64,000 nucleotides of DNA from Lagierella massiliensis (GTDB taxonomy: Bacteria > Bacillota > Clostridia > Tissierellales > Peptoniphilaceae). A program made the translations under genes and the position numbers. This document shows positions 1,376-7,496 of the stretch, piece after piece (the first letter of the stretch is position 1; every line of letters begins with the position of its first letter). Below the pieces are notes generated by a model. The model was not told where the DNA came from, ran no database searches, and saw only the letters and a list, made by a program, of their open reading frames with translations. The stretch spans positions 1 to 64,000 of the forward strand of contig JAUNLT010000001.1 of NCBI GenBank assembly GCA_030532135.1. Direction: 5' to 3'.

Positions 1376-1801
1376 GTGATTAAAAATAAGGTAATAAAAG
1401 TATTAAAACTATGCCTTTTTATTTTAATAATGGGCATATTATATTCCTGTGGCGTAAATATTTCCTCAAACGAAAACATGGAAGATTTTGTAGAACTTGA
1501 AGATGGAAGTTTATATGATTTTAATATACATGATGGAATATTTTTTGAATATGAAGAGTTAACCATACACAAAGAAATTGAATATATAGCTGAAAAAGAT
1601 ACCAATATAATTATAAAAGCGTCGGGAAGTTCGGGAGATTTAGTTTTTTCAGTGGAAGGTGACAATACTTCTGAAGTATTCCAGTGGAATGAAGAAGACT
1701 TATACAATACTGTGTTTGTTAACGAGGAAGACAGAATTTTAATTACAATAGATGCTATAAAACATAGTGGAGAATTTGAAATAATAGAGGATACGAAGTG
1801 A
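1376..1801 (+). CDS. Lipoprotein, first gene of the radical-SAM peptide operon
   Basis: A GTG start at 1376 sits behind AGGGGG and opens a 141-residue protein. The N-terminus is basic then hydrophobic and ends in the lipobox GILYSCG, so it is a predicted diacylglycerol-anchored lipoprotein. The rest is acidic and beta-rich. I do not recognise a domain. The stop TGA overlaps the GTG start of the radical SAM gene (GTGA), which implies translational coupling. By position it could be an immunity or lipid-anchored accessory protein for the peptide product; this is inference. A TATAAT at 1343-1348 is a plausible -10. Confidence 0.8.
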   Translation: MIKNKVIKVLKLCLFILIMGILYSCGVNISSNENMEDFVELEDGSLYDFNIHDGIFFEYEELTIHKEIEYIAEKDTNIIIKASGSSGDLVFSVEGDNTSEVFQWNEEDLYNTVFVNEEDRILITIDAIKHSGEFEIIEDTK

Positions 1802-3105
1802 AACAATCTTTTTACAACACGATAGTAAAATTACCAAATACTGAGTTTTATGCTATTTATAACACTAAGTCCGGTTGTCTAGCTTTATTAAATGAAAAAG
1901 AATATTGCAATTTAAATAAACCTTTAAATTTTAAAGATTGGGATAGTAATACTTGGGAAGAATTGAAAAATGCTGGATTTATTGTAGGTAAGGAATTTAA
2001 TGAACTTGAAGAGATAGAATATAATATGAACAAATCGAGATTTTCTAACAGTCATCTATCTCTTACTATAGCACCAACTGCCGATTGCAATTTTAGGTGT
2101 TCTTATTGTTATGAGAAAAACAATATAAAAATGGCATATATGAAAGATGAAACAATATGTAATTTACTTAAATTTATTGAAAGTGAAATGAAAAACAAAA
2201 AATATCTTAATATATGTTGGTATGGGGGAGAGCCTCTTTTAGCAGTCGATATTATTGAAAAAATAAGCAAAAAAATTTTTAAGATACAAGAAGAATTAGG
2301 ATTTAACTATGAAGGGTCAATGGTTACAAATGGATATCTATTAAATCGTAATATGGTTTTAAAATTAAATAAATTACATATAGATAATTATCAAATAACA
2401 TTGGATGGCAATAAAAAGTACCACGACAAGAGGAGATTTTTAAAATGTGGAAAAGGTACATATAGACAAATTATAAAAAACTTAACAGATATAAATGATA
2501 TTTGTCCAAATATTTCAATAAGAATAAATGTGGATAAAGACAATATAAATTATATTTCTAACCTTATTGGAGAATTGAAAAGTCTTGATGTGCATAATAA
2601 ATTATTTTTGTATATAGGGAAAGTAGAAAATTATCAAAATATATATGACGAAGGGGTTTGTTTTAATGACAGAGAATTTTACATGGAGCAAGTTAAATTT
2701 TCAAAATCTTATTTTGAAGACAGCCTAAGAGATATTTATCCCAGTGTAAAAAGCAATTTTTGTTGTGCAGATAATGAAAGTTCTTTAATAATAGGATATG
2801 ATGGGTCGGTTTACAAGTGTTGGTCTGACATTGGAGAAGAGAAAAAAATTGTTGGAGAAATTAAAGATGAAGGACTAAGAATTTATAAAACGAAGTATTA
2901 TTATGATCTATTAACTTTTAATCCAACTAAAGAATTATATTGTAGTTCTTGCAAGTATTTACCAATTTGCATGGGGGGATGTCCTTATGAAAGGATAAAT
3001 GCTGAAAAACAATGTATGAAAGAAAAAATGAATTTAGAATCTTATATTAAGGAATTATCATTAGAAATAATTGGAGGAAATTATGAAAATTTTAATTCAA
3101 AATAG
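1798..3105 (+). CDS. Radical SAM/SPASM peptide maturase
   Basis: This 435-residue protein has an N-terminal region of about 85 residues that may bind the precursor, then a radical SAM motif CNFRCSYCYE (Cys97, Cys101, Cys104) that would bind the SAM-cleaving 4Fe-4S cluster. A YGGEPLL segment follows, which is typical of SPASM enzymes. The C-terminal SPASM-type cysteines are at 382, 385, 391, 395 and 406, with a further Cys pair upstream (NFCC), and would hold auxiliary clusters. Such enzymes install thioether or C-C crosslinks in ribosomal peptides. The next two genes are short Cys-rich peptides, so they are the likely substrates. The layout recalls clostridial CcpM/CLI_3235-type maturases, from memory only. 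Confidence 0.93.
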   Translation: MKQSFYNTIVKLPNTEFYAIYNTKSGCLALLNEKEYCNLNKPLNFKDWDSNTWEELKNAGFIVGKEFNELEEIEYNMNKSRFSNSHLSLTIAPTADCNFRCSYCYEKNNIKMAYMKDETICNLLKFIESEMKNKKYLNICWYGGEPLLAVDIIEKISKKIFKIQEELGFNYEGSMVTNGYLLNRNMVLKLNKLHIDNYQITLDGNKKYHDKRRFLKCGKGTYRQIIKNLTDINDICPNISIRINVDKDNINYISNLIGELKSLDVHNKLFLYIGKVENYQNIYDEGVCFNDREFYMEQVKFSKSYFEDSLRDIYPSVKSNFCCADNESSLIIGYDGSVYKCWSDIGEEKKIVGEIKDEGLRIYKTKYYYDLLTFNPTKELYCSSCKYLPICMGGCPYERINAEKQCMKEKMNLESYIKELSLEIIGGNYENFNSK

Positions 3106-3274
3106 TACACTTAAGGATTTTTGTATAATAAATTGCAGTACAAATAACTGTTCAGAGCATAATGTTATATGTAATACAAATTTTTGTGGTGGTAAATGTG
3201 CTACCCTTACAAGGGATTGTATTCCAGGTAAAGTTGGGAAAGTAGCTCCTTTTAACAAGGGGAAATTAAAATGA
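3083..3274 (+). CDS. Cys-rich RiPP precursor peptide 1
   Basis: The ATG at 3083 is chosen over a TTG at 3071 because GGAGG lies at ideal spacing before it; this gives 63 residues. It overlaps the 3' end of the maturase gene. Seven cysteines lie at 14, 18, 23, 30, 35, 39 and 46, including the blocks CIINC and CGGKC, followed by a Cys-free basic tail (VGKVAPFNKGKLK). There is no signal peptide and no GG cleavage site. The composition, size and position directly behind a SPASM enzyme support a substrate with several thioether links. The product could be antimicrobial or a signal; neither is shown. Confidence 0.85.
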   Translation: MKILIQNSTLKDFCIINCSTNNCSEHNVICNTNFCGGKCATLTRDCIPGKVGKVAPFNKGKLK

Positions 3275-3462
3275 TTTTCTTAATAAAACCTAAAGCAAGA
3301 AAATTTAGCAACTGTGGGAAAAATGTATGTAGTGAATTTTCTTCTTCTTGTTTAATGTATTCATGTTTGAAAGATTATAAAAGACCCGAGTCTAATTGTG
3401 AAGTTTTAATGGTCAAGAGTAAGGGGCATAAAAAAGTTAAGGCAAAGATTATAAAAAAATAA
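3271..3462 (+). CDS. Cys-rich RiPP precursor peptide 2
   Basis: The ATG overlaps the stop of precursor 1 (ATGA) and has its own GGGG site, so the two are translationally coupled. The 63 residues hold cysteines at 15, 20, 27, 32 and 43 between a basic N-terminus (MIFLIKPKARKF) and a strongly basic C-terminus (KGHKKVKAKIIKK). Sequence and Cys spacing differ from precursor 1, so it is not a simple duplicate. The N-terminus recalls the clostridial Clo7bot peptides, a comparison made from memory. A second substrate of the same maturase, or one half of a two-peptide product, is the best reading. Confidence 0.82.
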   Translation: MIFLIKPKARKFSNCGKNVCSEFSSSCLMYSCLKDYKRPESNCEVLMVKSKGHKKVKAKIIKK

Positions 3463-3480
3463 GGGCGTACGCCCTTATTT
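3457..3480 (+). terminator. Perfect 24-bp palindrome between precursor and exporter genes
   Basis: The arms AAATAAGGGC and GCCCTTATTT flank GTAC. The T-tract is short and interrupted. It overlaps the stop region of precursor 2 and lies 15 bases before the exporter start, so partial termination or mRNA end protection would make more precursor than transporter. Confidence 0.75.
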
Positions 3481-3494
3481 AATTTGAGGTTTAT

Positions 3495-5063
3495 ATGAGT
3501 TTTTTAGATATTTTTAAAAAATACTTTAAAAAAAGAAAAATAAAATTAACTTTATACTATCTTATAGGAATAGTAAGTGCTTGTTTAACGTTAATTTCAC
3601 CGTATATCATTGGAAACTTCATTGACGTATTGGTCAAATCAAAAACCATGGGGGTTATAAATAGATATGCTCTTATTTTTGGAATTGTCAACATTTTAAA
3701 TTTTATTTTAAGCTATCTTGAAGAAAAAATATATTTATTGATACAAATAGATAGTGCATATGAATTTAATGTGGACTTGTTAAACCACTATGAAAGACTG
3801 CCTTTAAAATATTCTGATAAATACGATAAGTCCTTTATCGTACAGCAATTTAACAATGACTCAAATGAACTTATTATATTTCTAATGGACTTTATATTAA
3901 GTACATCTATTAATATTTTAACTATAGTAGCATCTTCGATTGTTCTTTTCTCTTTAAATAAGAGCCTTGCGATTTCATTATATGTATGTGGAGTTTTTTA
4001 TATAGTATTTTTTATTATAATGAAGAGAAAATTATATGAAGTAAATTTTCAAATGATGGAAGACCAGTCAGATTTTTTTGCCAGGTCCCACCAAAGAATT
4101 AATAGATTAAAGTCTATTAAAATACATAGCCTAGGGAAAATACTTGATAAGAATCTAGATAAGTCTTTTATTAAACTTAAAAAATCATCTAAAAGAAAAC
4201 TAGATATAAATTATATATACTCAGCACTGTCTAATTTAATACAAAATTTGGTCCAAGTACTGACTTTTATTTATGGTGGATATCTTGTAATTAAAAATAG
4301 TATGAGTATTGGAGAAATGACCATGATAACAGCATTTTTTAGCTATATATTATCGTCTATTAATTACTTTTTTTATTTAGGAGAAGAGATACAATCAGCT
4401 AAAGCTATGAGAAATAGAATAAATCGAATTTTACTAAAAAAACCCCAAACAAATGGCAATAAAGAAATCTCTTCTATTGATTGCATTAGTATAGAAGGGT
4501 TAAATTTTTCTTATGGAAAGCAAAAGTTGATAAATGATTTTTCATATATTTTTAAAAAGGGGAATTTATATTTAATTAAAGGAGAAAATGGGAAAGGTAA
4601 AACCACTTTAGTAAATTTAATTATAGGATTATATATTGATGAATATTCAGGAAAGATTTTAATTAATAAAGAAAATATAGAGAATATTGATATGATATCA
4701 TTAAGAAAAAAACTGGTTGCATATACAGAGCAAAAACCATTTTTAATTTCCGAAGAGATAGAGAAGATAATAAATGATATGAACTTTAGTGATTTAATCG
4801 AAAAGTTTAATTTAAGAAATTTAAGAGATCATAAAATCGATGAAGACAATCTTTCCGGTGGTCAGATTCAAAAGCTTTCAATTATTCATGGAATTTCTAA
4901 AAATCCTGATTTATATATTTTTGATGAGCCTACTTCTCATATGGATAAGAAATCTAAAGAATTTTTTACTAAATTTATTATAGAACTAAAAAAAGACAAA
5001 ATTGTAATCATTATAACTCATGAGGATATTGACTTTTATGCTGATGAGATTATATATTTATAG
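3495..5063 (+). CDS. ABC exporter of the Cys-rich peptide operon
   Basis: A 522-residue half-transporter with TM segments in the first ~300 residues and a C-terminal ATPase. Walker A GENGKGKT is near residue 363, the signature LSGGQIQK near 452 and Walker B LYIFDEPTS near 471. There is no N-terminal C39 peptidase domain, so it would export without cleaving a leader and probably works as a homodimer. It follows precursor 2 after 32 bases, in the same orientation and separated by the palindrome. The natural cargo is the matured Cys-rich peptide; this is inferred from context. Confidence 0.9.
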   Translation: MSFLDIFKKYFKKRKIKLTLYYLIGIVSACLTLISPYIIGNFIDVLVKSKTMGVINRYALIFGIVNILNFILSYLEEKIYLLIQIDSAYEFNVDLLNHYERLPLKYSDKYDKSFIVQQFNNDSNELIIFLMDFILSTSINILTIVASSIVLFSLNKSLAISLYVCGVFYIVFFIIMKRKLYEVNFQMMEDQSDFFARSHQRINRLKSIKIHSLGKILDKNLDKSFIKLKKSSKRKLDINYIYSALSNLIQNLVQVLTFIYGGYLVIKNSMSIGEMTMITAFFSYILSSINYFFYLGEEIQSAKAMRNRINRILLKKPQTNGNKEISSIDCISIEGLNFSYGKQKLINDFSYIFKKGNLYLIKGENGKGKTTLVNLIIGLYIDEYSGKILINKENIENIDMISLRKKLVAYTEQKPFLISEEIEKIINDMNFSDLIEKFNLRNLRDHKIDEDNLSGGQIQKLSIIHGISKNPDLYIFDEPTSHMDKKSKEFFTKFIIELKKDKIVIIITHEDIDFYADEIIYL

Positions 5064-5120: not shown

Positions 5121-5504
5121 ATGGAAGATTTAAAAAGACATGTATTAGAATATTTCAAAGACAATAAGGTTGATCCAAATGAGGTTTCATCTGTGCTAGA
5201 AGACCTTAAAATCAATGTGCTTGACGATATGTATGGAGACGAAGGGGAATGGGTTTTAAAAAAGCTTGGTAAGGTTGAATCTTTTGATAAGGAAAAGATT
5301 TTCAACTCTATAGCACAAACTTCAGATGAAGCAAATGACTGTATGACCCAAGGGGATATAGATCTTATAGTTAATGAAGTTTTAAAGAAAATGAAATCTA
5401 TTAAGAGGAATGTATATCCAACTAAGGAAATCAGACAATATGTTAAAGAAGCTTTAAAAAACAATAACTACAATAAAGTTCTTGATAAATACAGCAAAAA
5501 CTAA
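5121..5504 (+). CDS. Stand-alone ATP-cone domain protein
   Basis: The ATG at 5121 has AAGGAGAG in front and is preferred over an in-frame upstream start at 5091, giving 127 residues. Residues ~52-127 (KVESFDKEKIFNSIAQT to the C-terminus) match the ATP-cone fold found at the N-terminus of ribonucleotide reductases and in NrdR. The first 50 residues are acidic and unrecognised. No catalytic domain is attached, so it is probably a nucleotide-sensing or partner-binding protein. It has its own terminator and is probably not part of the peptide operon. Confidence 0.75.
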   Translation: MEDLKRHVLEYFKDNKVDPNEVSSVLEDLKINVLDDMYGDEGEWVLKKLGKVESFDKEKIFNSIAQTSDEANDCMTQGDIDLIVNEVLKKMKSIKRNVYPTKEIRQYVKEALKNNNYNKVLDKYSKN

Positions 5505-5510
5505 TATAAT

Positions 5511-5537
5511 AAAGCCTTCAATAAGAAGGCTTTTTCT
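5511..5537 (+). terminator. Terminator after the ATP-cone gene
   Basis: AAAGCCTTC/GAAGGCTTT stem with an AATAA loop and a T-run. Confidence 0.92.
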
Positions 5538-5645: not shown

Positions 5646-7496
5646 ATGTGCGGTTACGTTGGAATATATAAATTAAATTCATATACAAAAGACGATGATT
5701 TATTTTTGCATGATATGTCAAAAGAAATAGAACATAGAGGACCCGACTCTTATGGCTATTTTTCTGATGAATCAATAGGTCTTGGGTTTAGAAGACTTGC
5801 TTTTTTGGACTTATCTAAAAAGGGAACTCAGCCACTTTTTACAGATGATAAGAAAAAAGTCATTTGTTTTAATGGTGAAATATACAATCATGAAGAGATA
5901 AGGCAGGAACTCATTGAGGAAGGATATACTTTTAATTCTACTTCCGATACGGAAGTTTTACTTAAAGGATATGATAAATACGAAGAAAAAATATTGGATA
6001 AGCTTAGGGGTATGTTTGCTTTTTCTATTTGGGATATGGAGAAAAAAGAACTTTTTATTGCAAGGGATTTTTTTGGAATTAAACCCATGTACTACACGAA
6101 AAATACTAAAGATGGATCTTTATTGTTTGGTTCTGAAATAAAGGCTTTCTTAAAAAATCCTAATTTTATTAAGGAATTTAATGAAAAAGCGTTAAGACCC
6201 TATTTAACAAATGAATATTCAGCCTACGAAGAAACTTTCTTTAAGAATGTTTATAAGCTTGAAGCGGGACATTATCTAAGAGTGAAAGATGGTAGGATGG
6301 ATTTAGTTAAATACTTTAAGCCCGATATTAAACCTACAAACAAAACCCTAGATGAGTACATAAACCAAGTGGAAGAAGTTGTTAAAGAAACGGTTGAACT
6401 CTACAAGAAAAGTGATTCAAAGCTTGGGTGCTTTTTATCAGGGGGGGTAGACTCTTCATATATATTTTCCCTTGCTCAAACCGATAAGACTTTTAGTGTA
6501 GGGTTTAAAGAGCATAGTGATCAGTACAATGAAACTAATTTGGCAAAGGAATTGTCCGAGATAAAGGGTAAGGAAAATTTAAAAGTTTTGATTGATGCAG
6601 ATGATTGTTTTAACGCACTTCCAAAGATACAGTACTATATGGACGAACCCCATGCAAATCTTTCCGCTGTACCTATGTACTTTTTGTCAAAGCTTGCAAG
6701 GGAACATGTAAAGGGTGTACTTTCTGGAGAAGGGGCGGATGAACTTTTTGGAGGTTACTTTAGCTATGGAGAAACAAAAAATCTACACAATTATAGGAAA
6801 CTTCCTTTTGGACTACGCCACTTCATTAGAAATAGAGCTTTAAAAATGAAAAGTGGAAGAATTAGAACGTTCTTGATAAAAGGAGGTTCAAAACTTCACG
6901 AAGAATTTATAGGTCAAGCCAAGGTATTTGAACCGGAACATGCAGACGCTATATTAAAACCAAAGTATAGGGTGGGGGAAAATCCATTTGAAGAGGCAAA
7001 AAAATTTTATGAGACTGTGAGAGGAAAGAGTAAACTTCAAAAGATGCAACTCTTAGATATGAAATACTGGCTTCCTGGAAATATACTACTAAAGGGAGAT
7101 AAGATGAGCTCTTGCTCAAGTTTAGAAGTTAGAACTCCGTTTTTAGATCCGAAAGTCTATAAGGTGGCTTCTTCAATTCCCGATAAGTACAAGATTGATG
7201 GAGATGACTTTAAAATTGCACTAAGAAAAGCGGCAGAAAGAGTTATGCCACCGGATTGGTCAAATAGAAAGAAAGTTGGTTTTCCAGTGCCTATAAGGTA
7301 TTGGCTAAGACAGGACAAGTACTACAATCTAGTAAAAAAAGAACTTACATCAGATATTGCAAAGGAGTTTTTTGACACTGATGCACTGATAAAATTACTT
7401 GATGACCACTATCATGAAAAGGCCATGAATCAAAGATATATTTGGACGGTTTATACGTTTTTAATTTGGTATAGAGAATATTTTGTAAATAGATAA
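5646..7496 (+). CDS. asnB: Asparagine synthetase B (glutamine-hydrolysing)
   Basis: The start at 5646 (ATG TGC) is chosen because the class II glutaminase needs Cys2; upstream in-frame ATGs would bury it. This gives 616 residues, the usual AsnB length. The N-terminal half holds MCGYVG, HRGPDS and FNGEIYNH, all glutaminase motifs. The synthetase domain begins with the PP-loop LSGGVDSS near residue 265 and has the GEGADELFGGY motif. The enzyme makes asparagine from aspartate, ATP and glutamine in the cytosol. GGAG at 5637-5640 is the ribosome-binding site. It is monocistronic, with terminators on both sides. Confidence 0.96.
   Translation: MCGYVGIYKLNSYTKDDDLFLHDMSKEIEHRGPDSYGYFSDESIGLGFRRLAFLDLSKKGTQPLFTDDKKKVICFNGEIYNHEEIRQELIEEGYTFNSTSDTEVLLKGYDKYEEKILDKLRGMFAFSIWDMEKKELFIARDFFGIKPMYYTKNTKDGSLLFGSEIKAFLKNPNFIKEFNEKALRPYLTNEYSAYEETFFKNVYKLEAGHYLRVKDGRMDLVKYFKPDIKPTNKTLDEYINQVEEVVKETVELYKKSDSKLGCFLSGGVDSSYIFSLAQTDKTFSVGFKEHSDQYNETNLAKELSEIKGKENLKVLIDADDCFNALPKIQYYMDEPHANLSAVPMYFLSKLAREHVKGVLSGEGADELFGGYFSYGETKNLHNYRKLPFGLRHFIRNRALKMKSGRIRTFLIKGGSKLHEEFIGQAKVFEPEHADAILKPKYRVGENPFEEAKKFYETVRGKSKLQKMQLLDMKYWLPGNILLKGDKMSSCSSLEVRTPFLDPKVYKVASSIPDKYKIDGDDFKIALRKAAERVMPPDWSNRKKVGFPVPIRYWLRQDKYYNLVKKELTSDIAKEFFDTDALIKLLDDHYHEKAMNQRYIWTVYTFLIWYREYFVNR

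Follow-up and report, generated by a model that had tools for sequence, protein, structure and literature searches.

A probable two-precursor modified-peptide operon of Lagierella massiliensis in a putative sister group of Clo7bot

Among ribosomally synthesised and post-translationally modified peptides (RiPPs), sactionine and ranthionine linkages each join one donor cysteine to an acceptor residue, as set out in a passage of a recent review (PMC11002830). According to an excerpt of work on the radical SAM enzyme PapB (PMC9413430), cores placed behind its leader may vary widely, given a cysteine and a downstream acceptor. Extracts from a 2014 survey (PMC4289311) describe a Clostridium cluster in which two precursors share a single radical SAM enzyme, and list a radical SAM gene of the thuricin-like kind in Anaerococcus prevotii. 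Here I analyse a stretch of 64,000 nucleotides from Lagierella massiliensis (contig JAUNLT010000001.1, positions 1 to 64,000; hereafter the window), in which genes for a lipoprotein, a radical SAM/SPASM maturase, two cysteine-rich precursor peptides (P1 and P2) and an ABC exporter follow one another head to tail. They probably form an accessory RiPP operon of a sister group to Clo7bot, in which one enzyme would cross-link two leader-bearing cysteine peptides for export; it is most likely a branch next to a known modified-peptide system and not a wholly new one. No description of this branch was found among the titles and abstract openings listed, a search that left most subscription literature outside and does not show absence from print, and a literature search on 'Clo7bot' gave no match.

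The operon and its maturase

All five genes lie on the + strand between positions 1376 and 5063, and the first four each overlap the gene or genes next door, as read from open reading frames (ORFs) and translations. The five-gene operon is real, and the initial annotation described its common direction and its overlaps (GTGA between lipoprotein and maturase genes, maturase with P1, ATGA between P1 and P2) correctly. The start of P1 was set at an ATG behind GGAGG, while the ORF listing begins instead at a TTG at 3071. The coordinates of all features are listed in Table 1.

The maturase has the features by which radical SAM/SPASM RiPP maturases are recognised, namely a CX3CX2C motif, a cysteine-rich SPASM region and an adjoining small precursor. 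The cysteines of the motif (C97/C101/C104) and C322, C341, C382, C385, C391, C395 and C406 were invariant in 34 aligned sequences. The Pfam SPASM model scored 24.6 bits in the genome search (cut-off 21.5) and 19.6 bits, just below the cut-off, on the whole protein. For a possible N-terminal RiPP recognition domain, profile A3 aligned to 5wgg from query position 28, while the broader profile A5 aligned only from position 86.

Comparison with NCBIfam maturase models enabled a placement close to, and outside, the named families. The Clo7bot model TIGR04334 scored best (277 bits, cut-off 600), followed by TIGR04463 (247, cut-off 525), and further models included CefB NF038107 (220, cut-off 600) and PapB NF047865 (147, cut-off 340); these scores ruled out membership of all four. 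Clo7bot was additionally ruled out by a separate group in the tree and by the peptides, since P1 and P2 matched no NCBIfam family up to E 1, including TIGR04333, the Clo7bot peptide model with which the initial annotation had suggested comparing them; PapB was additionally ruled out by the absence of Cys-X3-Asp/Glu at all 12 cysteines of P1 and P2. Eight maturases of the group (from loci L024, L142, L051, L036, L175, L025, L121 and L141) scored 250-316 bits against TIGR04334, and four peptides of close relatives had no NCBIfam family up to E 0.1. As positive controls, the Clo7bot maturases of L085 and L071 reached 775 and 822 bits; each lies next to a row of MKYIVKP-type peptides, of which one per locus scored 48 bits (L085) and 53 bits (L071) against TIGR04333 (cut-off 31).

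A quick maximum-likelihood tree of 90 of the 94 maturases, midpoint-rooted and without bootstrap, paired the window maturase with that of L024 (SH-aLRT 97). The pair fell within a 35-row group (96), separate from a 30-row Clo7bot group (96), with weak forks right around it. Three far outliers and L064 had been removed beforehand, and the maturase of genome G085 is missing from the tree because L064 was left out. Scores and tree indicate that the operon is most likely a member of a sister group to Clo7bot-type RiPP operons, so far without a family name.

Table 1. Features of the operon and the gene that follows it
Feature	Position	Strand	Remarks
Small acidic lipoprotein	1376..1801	+	Starts at GTG; lipobox LYSC and signal peptide recognised by eye; candidate for a role in immunity or as accessory protein
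Radical SAM/SPASM peptide maturase	1798..3105	+	GTG start; GTGA overlap with lipoprotein gene; PF04055 8.6e-15
Precursor P1	3083..3274	+	63 aa with 7 Cys; MKILIQN as leader; CIPGKVG as C-terminal motif
Precursor P2	3271..3462	+	63 aa with 5 Cys; MIFLIKP as leader; cationic tail; without CxPxxxG motif
24-bp perfect palindrome	3457..3480	+	RNA hairpin between precursors and exporter; possible weak terminator or mRNA-stability element
ABC exporter, permease and ATPase	3495..5063	+	Without peptidase domain; PF00664 4.8e-31, PF00005 3e-25
ATP-cone gene	5121-5504		After the operon; also after tuf in G001 and G002

Precursor peptides in a common cysteine frame

The initial annotation gave the cysteines of P1 (14, 18, 23, 30, 35, 39 and 46) and P2 (15, 20, 27, 32 and 43) accurately, and called their spacing unrelated, which does not hold. 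P1 has the gaps 4-5-7-5-4-7 and P2 the gaps 5-7-5-11, and when P2 is shifted by 3, all five of its cysteines fall without a gap on C18, C23, C30, C35 and C46 of P1, leaving C14 and C39 of P1 beyond the common frame. A gapless match of all five arose by chance at a frequency of 0.0009 when cysteines were placed at random, and of 0.043 when the order of the gaps alone was shuffled (20,000 trials each). The cysteine frame common to both peptides is well supported.

Descent of P1 and P2 from a common ancestor by duplication is likely, but not proven. The best local alignment, of NCSTNNCSEHNVICNTNFC with NCGKNVCSEFSSSCLMYSC, was better than 994 of 1,000 core shuffles, and P1 was the second-best partner of P2 once the leader was removed (z 3.19). 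Three results count against common descent: with the cysteines held fixed the alignment reached z 0.76, with 212 of 1,000 shuffles as good; a MAFFT multiple alignment set C43 of P2 (CEVL) on C39 of P1 (CATL) by means of gaps; and the top partner of P2 among the collected precursors was a peptide from L056 (z 4.07), with P1 third (z 2.6). The precursor nearest to P1 was L142_2023, the second precursor of L142 (shuffle z 6.2, 300 shuffles). In residues 47-63, P1 has five and P2 eight Lys/Arg, with no Asp/Glu in either.

An odd number of cysteines in both peptides had initially been taken to imply a free cysteine, a C-C link or an intermolecular link. This does not follow: parity is uninformative because each cysteine can be used alone in cysteine-to-carbon thioethers, one per acceptor in the wording of the review passage cited above. 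Among 46 distinct candidate precursors, which were collected by leader and cysteine content and include a few doubtful ORFs, 31 had odd and 15 even numbers.

The close loci (the window, L024, L025, L140, L142, L141/L064, L043/L121 and L051/L143) have a recurrent C-terminal pattern, C-x-[PTE]-x3-G, which was written after examples had been seen and is present near the C-terminus of 12 of the 14 intact precursors, in P1 and not in P2. The other intact precursor without it carries CDVGRPG. A thirteenth match, in the truncated copy of L140, lies at a different position and is spurious, and the pattern had no match among the collected precursors outside the close loci.

Relatives, gene linkage and genomic setting

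The partner of the window in the tree, L024 (genome G021), encodes a maturase 46% identical to that of the window and has the same order of lipoprotein, maturase, precursor and exporter, with one precursor. L025 (G012) and L142 (G088) are arranged as precursor, maturase, precursor and exporter, as is L140 (G092), in which the second precursor is interrupted by an in-frame stop. Three precursors were counted in L043, two in L051 and one in L141 up to the end of its contig, so that at least two precursor genes are found in six of the eight close loci when the broken copy of L140 is counted.

The linkage of maturase and cysteine peptide is conserved in the wider group. Forty loci were inspected, in three of which the script recognised no maturase, and peptides were accepted as ORFs of 28-110 aa with at least three cysteines and the leader pattern, within 3.5 kb at most and on the same strand. 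Homologs of the maturase do not consistently lack adjoining cysteine peptides: in 32 of the remaining 37 loci at least one leader-bearing peptide was found, and none in L048, L052, L059, L176 and L177, of which L176 and L177 do have cysteine-rich ORFs nearby. At least two were present in 11 of 30 loci, with two duplicate loci and doubtful ORFs left out. In a stricter set (at least four cysteines and a ribosome-binding site, 35 loci), the leader was present in 30 of 33 ORFs near maturases, as against 1 of 8 ORFs in other places and 3 of 16 that lie within other genes. These counts are support and not an independent test, because the leader pattern was formulated with examples already in view, which makes the counts partly circular. 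The initial view of a SPASM enzyme beside cysteine-rich peptides, in a RiPP operon where one maturase and one exporter go with two precursors, is supported.

Several other arrangements were seen. In L178, identical cysteine-peptide genes at 3736-3924 and 7038-7226, each followed by a similar 451-454-aa gene, stand around a wider-group maturase; this is a recent duplication of the precursor unit. L144 (7115-12262) has three tandem units of a precursor and a 461-462-aa gene behind one maturase. In L065, L070, L073 and L074, which are three Zixiibacteriota records and one other record of the same superfamily, two radical SAM genes, identified from their motif alone, lie next to each other with an overlap of a few bases.

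The lipoprotein of the window is homologous to the one that occupies the corresponding position in L024 (BLASTP E 1e-13). A lipoprotein profile gave strong matches in 2 of 130 family genomes, G000 (the window's own genome) and G021, both of which were used to build it, and weak ones in seven further family genomes (E 2e-4 to 9e-3). No significant Pfam or NCBIfam family was found for the lipoprotein (lowest E 0.063 and 0.087, with scores far short of the cut-offs), nothing in PHROGs for lipoprotein, P1 or P2, and by sequence the PDB returned a single match, for the lipoprotein at E 1.2. Of the initial proposal for this gene, the link to the operon stands, being supported by gene order in one relative; a role in immunity is plausible from its position and the same relative.

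The exporter is 35-38% identical to exporters beside the maturases of L024, L025, L051, L036 and L175, and 32% identical to those of L140 and L142 (fetched loci throughout). It had been annotated as lacking a peptidase, and this was borne out: ABC_membrane and ABC_tran matched, no C39-type peptidase domain was among its Pfam matches, and in three models of peptidase-containing exporters its alignment began at profile positions 144-153. Between precursors and exporter, the palindrome also proved to be as initially described, perfect over 24 bp, its 5' arm taking in the P2 stop codon. RNA folding of 3440-3500 gave -14.6 kcal/mol (z -2.85), a value reached by 3 of 200 shuffles. A terminator scan called the palindrome terminator-like on the - strand only, which makes it a weak terminator or stability element at best on the + strand. 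A stem-loop with a T tail at 5511-5533 of the window, after the ATP-cone gene, was terminator-like on both strands.

Judged by gene content, the operon is accessory, because no maturase of this kind was found at E 1e-40 in the same-genus genomes G001 and G002, nor any such operon between their tuf and ATP-cone genes. This interval holds ~1.8 kb in G001 and ~4.9 kb of other genes in G002, and ~5 kb in the window, where positions 1-82 are, by eye, the C-terminal end of the elongation factor Tu gene. Of 249 genomes of the order, 20 encode a maturase matched by the close profile at E 1e-90 or better. Seven of the 249 were matched by the precursor profile, all with a clade maturase and the same seven that had built the profile, so that no new member was found; the same run missed P2. 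A run on the window's own genome (65% complete) recovered P2 and no further precursor. Two further, more distant relatives turned up at E 1e-130 among 391 sampled genomes of the class. Plasmids yielded 135 records, none of which reached 60% identity (28-38% among the eight matches listed), and viral contigs four loci, 33% at best.

Upstream of the operon, positions 750-1142 hold, by eye, a remnant of a second small lipoprotein-like gene, with a signal-peptide-like start followed by a stop, and the rest in another frame and again interrupted by a stop. In G000, contig 13 (L003, 1501-1605) has a SPASM match within a 132-aa frame that is interrupted by a stop, perhaps a disrupted radical SAM gene, and contig 9 (L001, 481-1845) has an open 454-aa radical SAM/SPASM gene that is distant from the window maturase.

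Alternative readings and known systems

In the reading preferred here, a common leader of ~12 residues (MK-F-L-I-x-P type) would bring P1 and P2 to the single maturase, and this enzyme would install several thioethers from core cysteine sulfurs to carbons of other residues, as its family and the cysteine-rich substrates suggest. The hairpin immediately behind P2 may keep expression of the exporter downstream below that of the precursors, and the peptidase-less exporter would then move the modified peptides out. The leader would be removed by an unlinked protease or retained, since the operon encodes none, and the lipoprotein may shield the producer or help at the cell surface. That one maturase might serve two substrates, as proposed initially, fits the gene set and is no surprise: one maturase with several substrates is ordinary in the superfamily, because the Clo7bot locus L085 has nine leader-bearing ORFs beside one maturase, a Paraclostridium plasmid has seven annotated Clo7bot peptides by one maturase, and the Clostridium cluster in the survey extracts has two precursors per enzyme.

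Several points weigh against this reading. The thioether chemistry and the activity of the peptides are inferred. By eye, none of the 12 cysteines of P1 and P2 has Asp/Glu at +4 and one has Thr. With four doubtful ORFs and one truncated copy removed beforehand, Thr was found 17 times at +4 of cysteine in the 14 close precursors, with 5.7 expected; neither Thr nor any other acceptor is claimed, because the precursors are related and just this one P1/P2 cysteine fits. P2, without the C-terminal motif of the close clade, may be drifting. The lipoprotein is missing from most close relatives, the operon has no protease gene, five loci of the wider group gave no leader-bearing peptide, and the leader pattern followed its examples.

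The motif missing from P2 and present in 12 of the 14 intact close precursors would also fit an explanation in which P2 is a decaying duplicate and P1 the sole working precursor. P2 resembles P1 weakly outside the cysteines, and the stopped precursor of L140 shows that precursor loss occurs; P2, however, is open and leader-bearing, is coupled to P1 by ATGA and keeps all five cysteines in register, and I consider its decay unlikely. A two-peptide bacteriocin like thuricin CD, with P1 and P2 both cross-linked and acting jointly and the lipoprotein conferring immunity, can be given the same tentative standing. Two translationally coupled precursors with cysteines in register and cationic tails, an exporter and a lipoprotein in the same operon, and paired precursors recurring in close relatives all agree with it. 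Yet L024 has the lipoprotein with one precursor, L025, L140 and L142 have two precursor genes with no such lipoprotein alongside or genome-wide (E 0.01), and thuricin CD is reported to need two radical SAM enzymes where the window operon has one. A narrower version, in which one maturase makes a matched and jointly active pair, one with and one without C-x-P-x3-G, carrying new cross-links on a C-x4-C-x6-C-x4-C frame, is distinctly doubtful.

The products may instead be signals or surface peptides with no antimicrobial role, a function that has been put forward for the SCIFF-derived ranthipeptides of solvent-producing clostridia. The title of one paper gives ranthipeptides a role in quorum sensing, and the C-terminal motif is conserved in a way that would suit recognition by a partner; on the other hand, no regulator gene is found within 1376-5063, and lipoprotein and exporter fit immunity equally well, which leaves signalling rather improbable. 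Metal-binding peptides, with a radical SAM enzyme that modifies them otherwise or does nothing on cysteine, would account for the many cysteines and for the lack, by eye, of a fixed acceptor pattern in P1 and P2. This is very unlikely, as the nearest named families (Clo7bot, TIGR04463, CefB and PapB) mature cysteine-rich peptides and 1376-5063 holds no metal-related gene.

What is new here is a branch beside Clo7bot with a recurrent C-terminal motif, paired precursors in register and a compact layout. If the products are made, the branch would lend itself to asking how a single radical SAM enzyme copes with several cores behind one leader, and whether paired products act jointly.

Among known systems, Clo7bot (TIGR04334/ctpM, TIGR04333) resembles the window operon in the maturase, which aligns nearly end to end, in the style of the leader (MKYIVKP in Clo7bot), in several small cysteine-rich precursors beside one maturase and in ABC transporters nearby. 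It differs in peptide length, P1 and P2 having 63 aa and two Clo7bot control peptides 35 and 37 aa, and in the C-x-P-x3-G C-terminal motif of P1 and its kin. TIGR04463, a RiPP maturase for cysteine-rich peptides, is the second-best model for the window maturase. The CefB system, with a cysteine at every fifth position, recalls the 4- and 5-residue cysteine steps of P1, whereas the full gaps of P1 and P2 depart from it. PapB/PapA, which makes the ranthipeptide freyrasin, has the same radical SAM/SPASM domains and, as reported, an enzyme guided by the leader, while its CX3D/CX3E spacing is found at no P1 or P2 cysteine. Thuricin CD likewise has two precursors within one gene cluster, although two radical SAM enzymes are reported to cooperate there, where the window operon relies on one.

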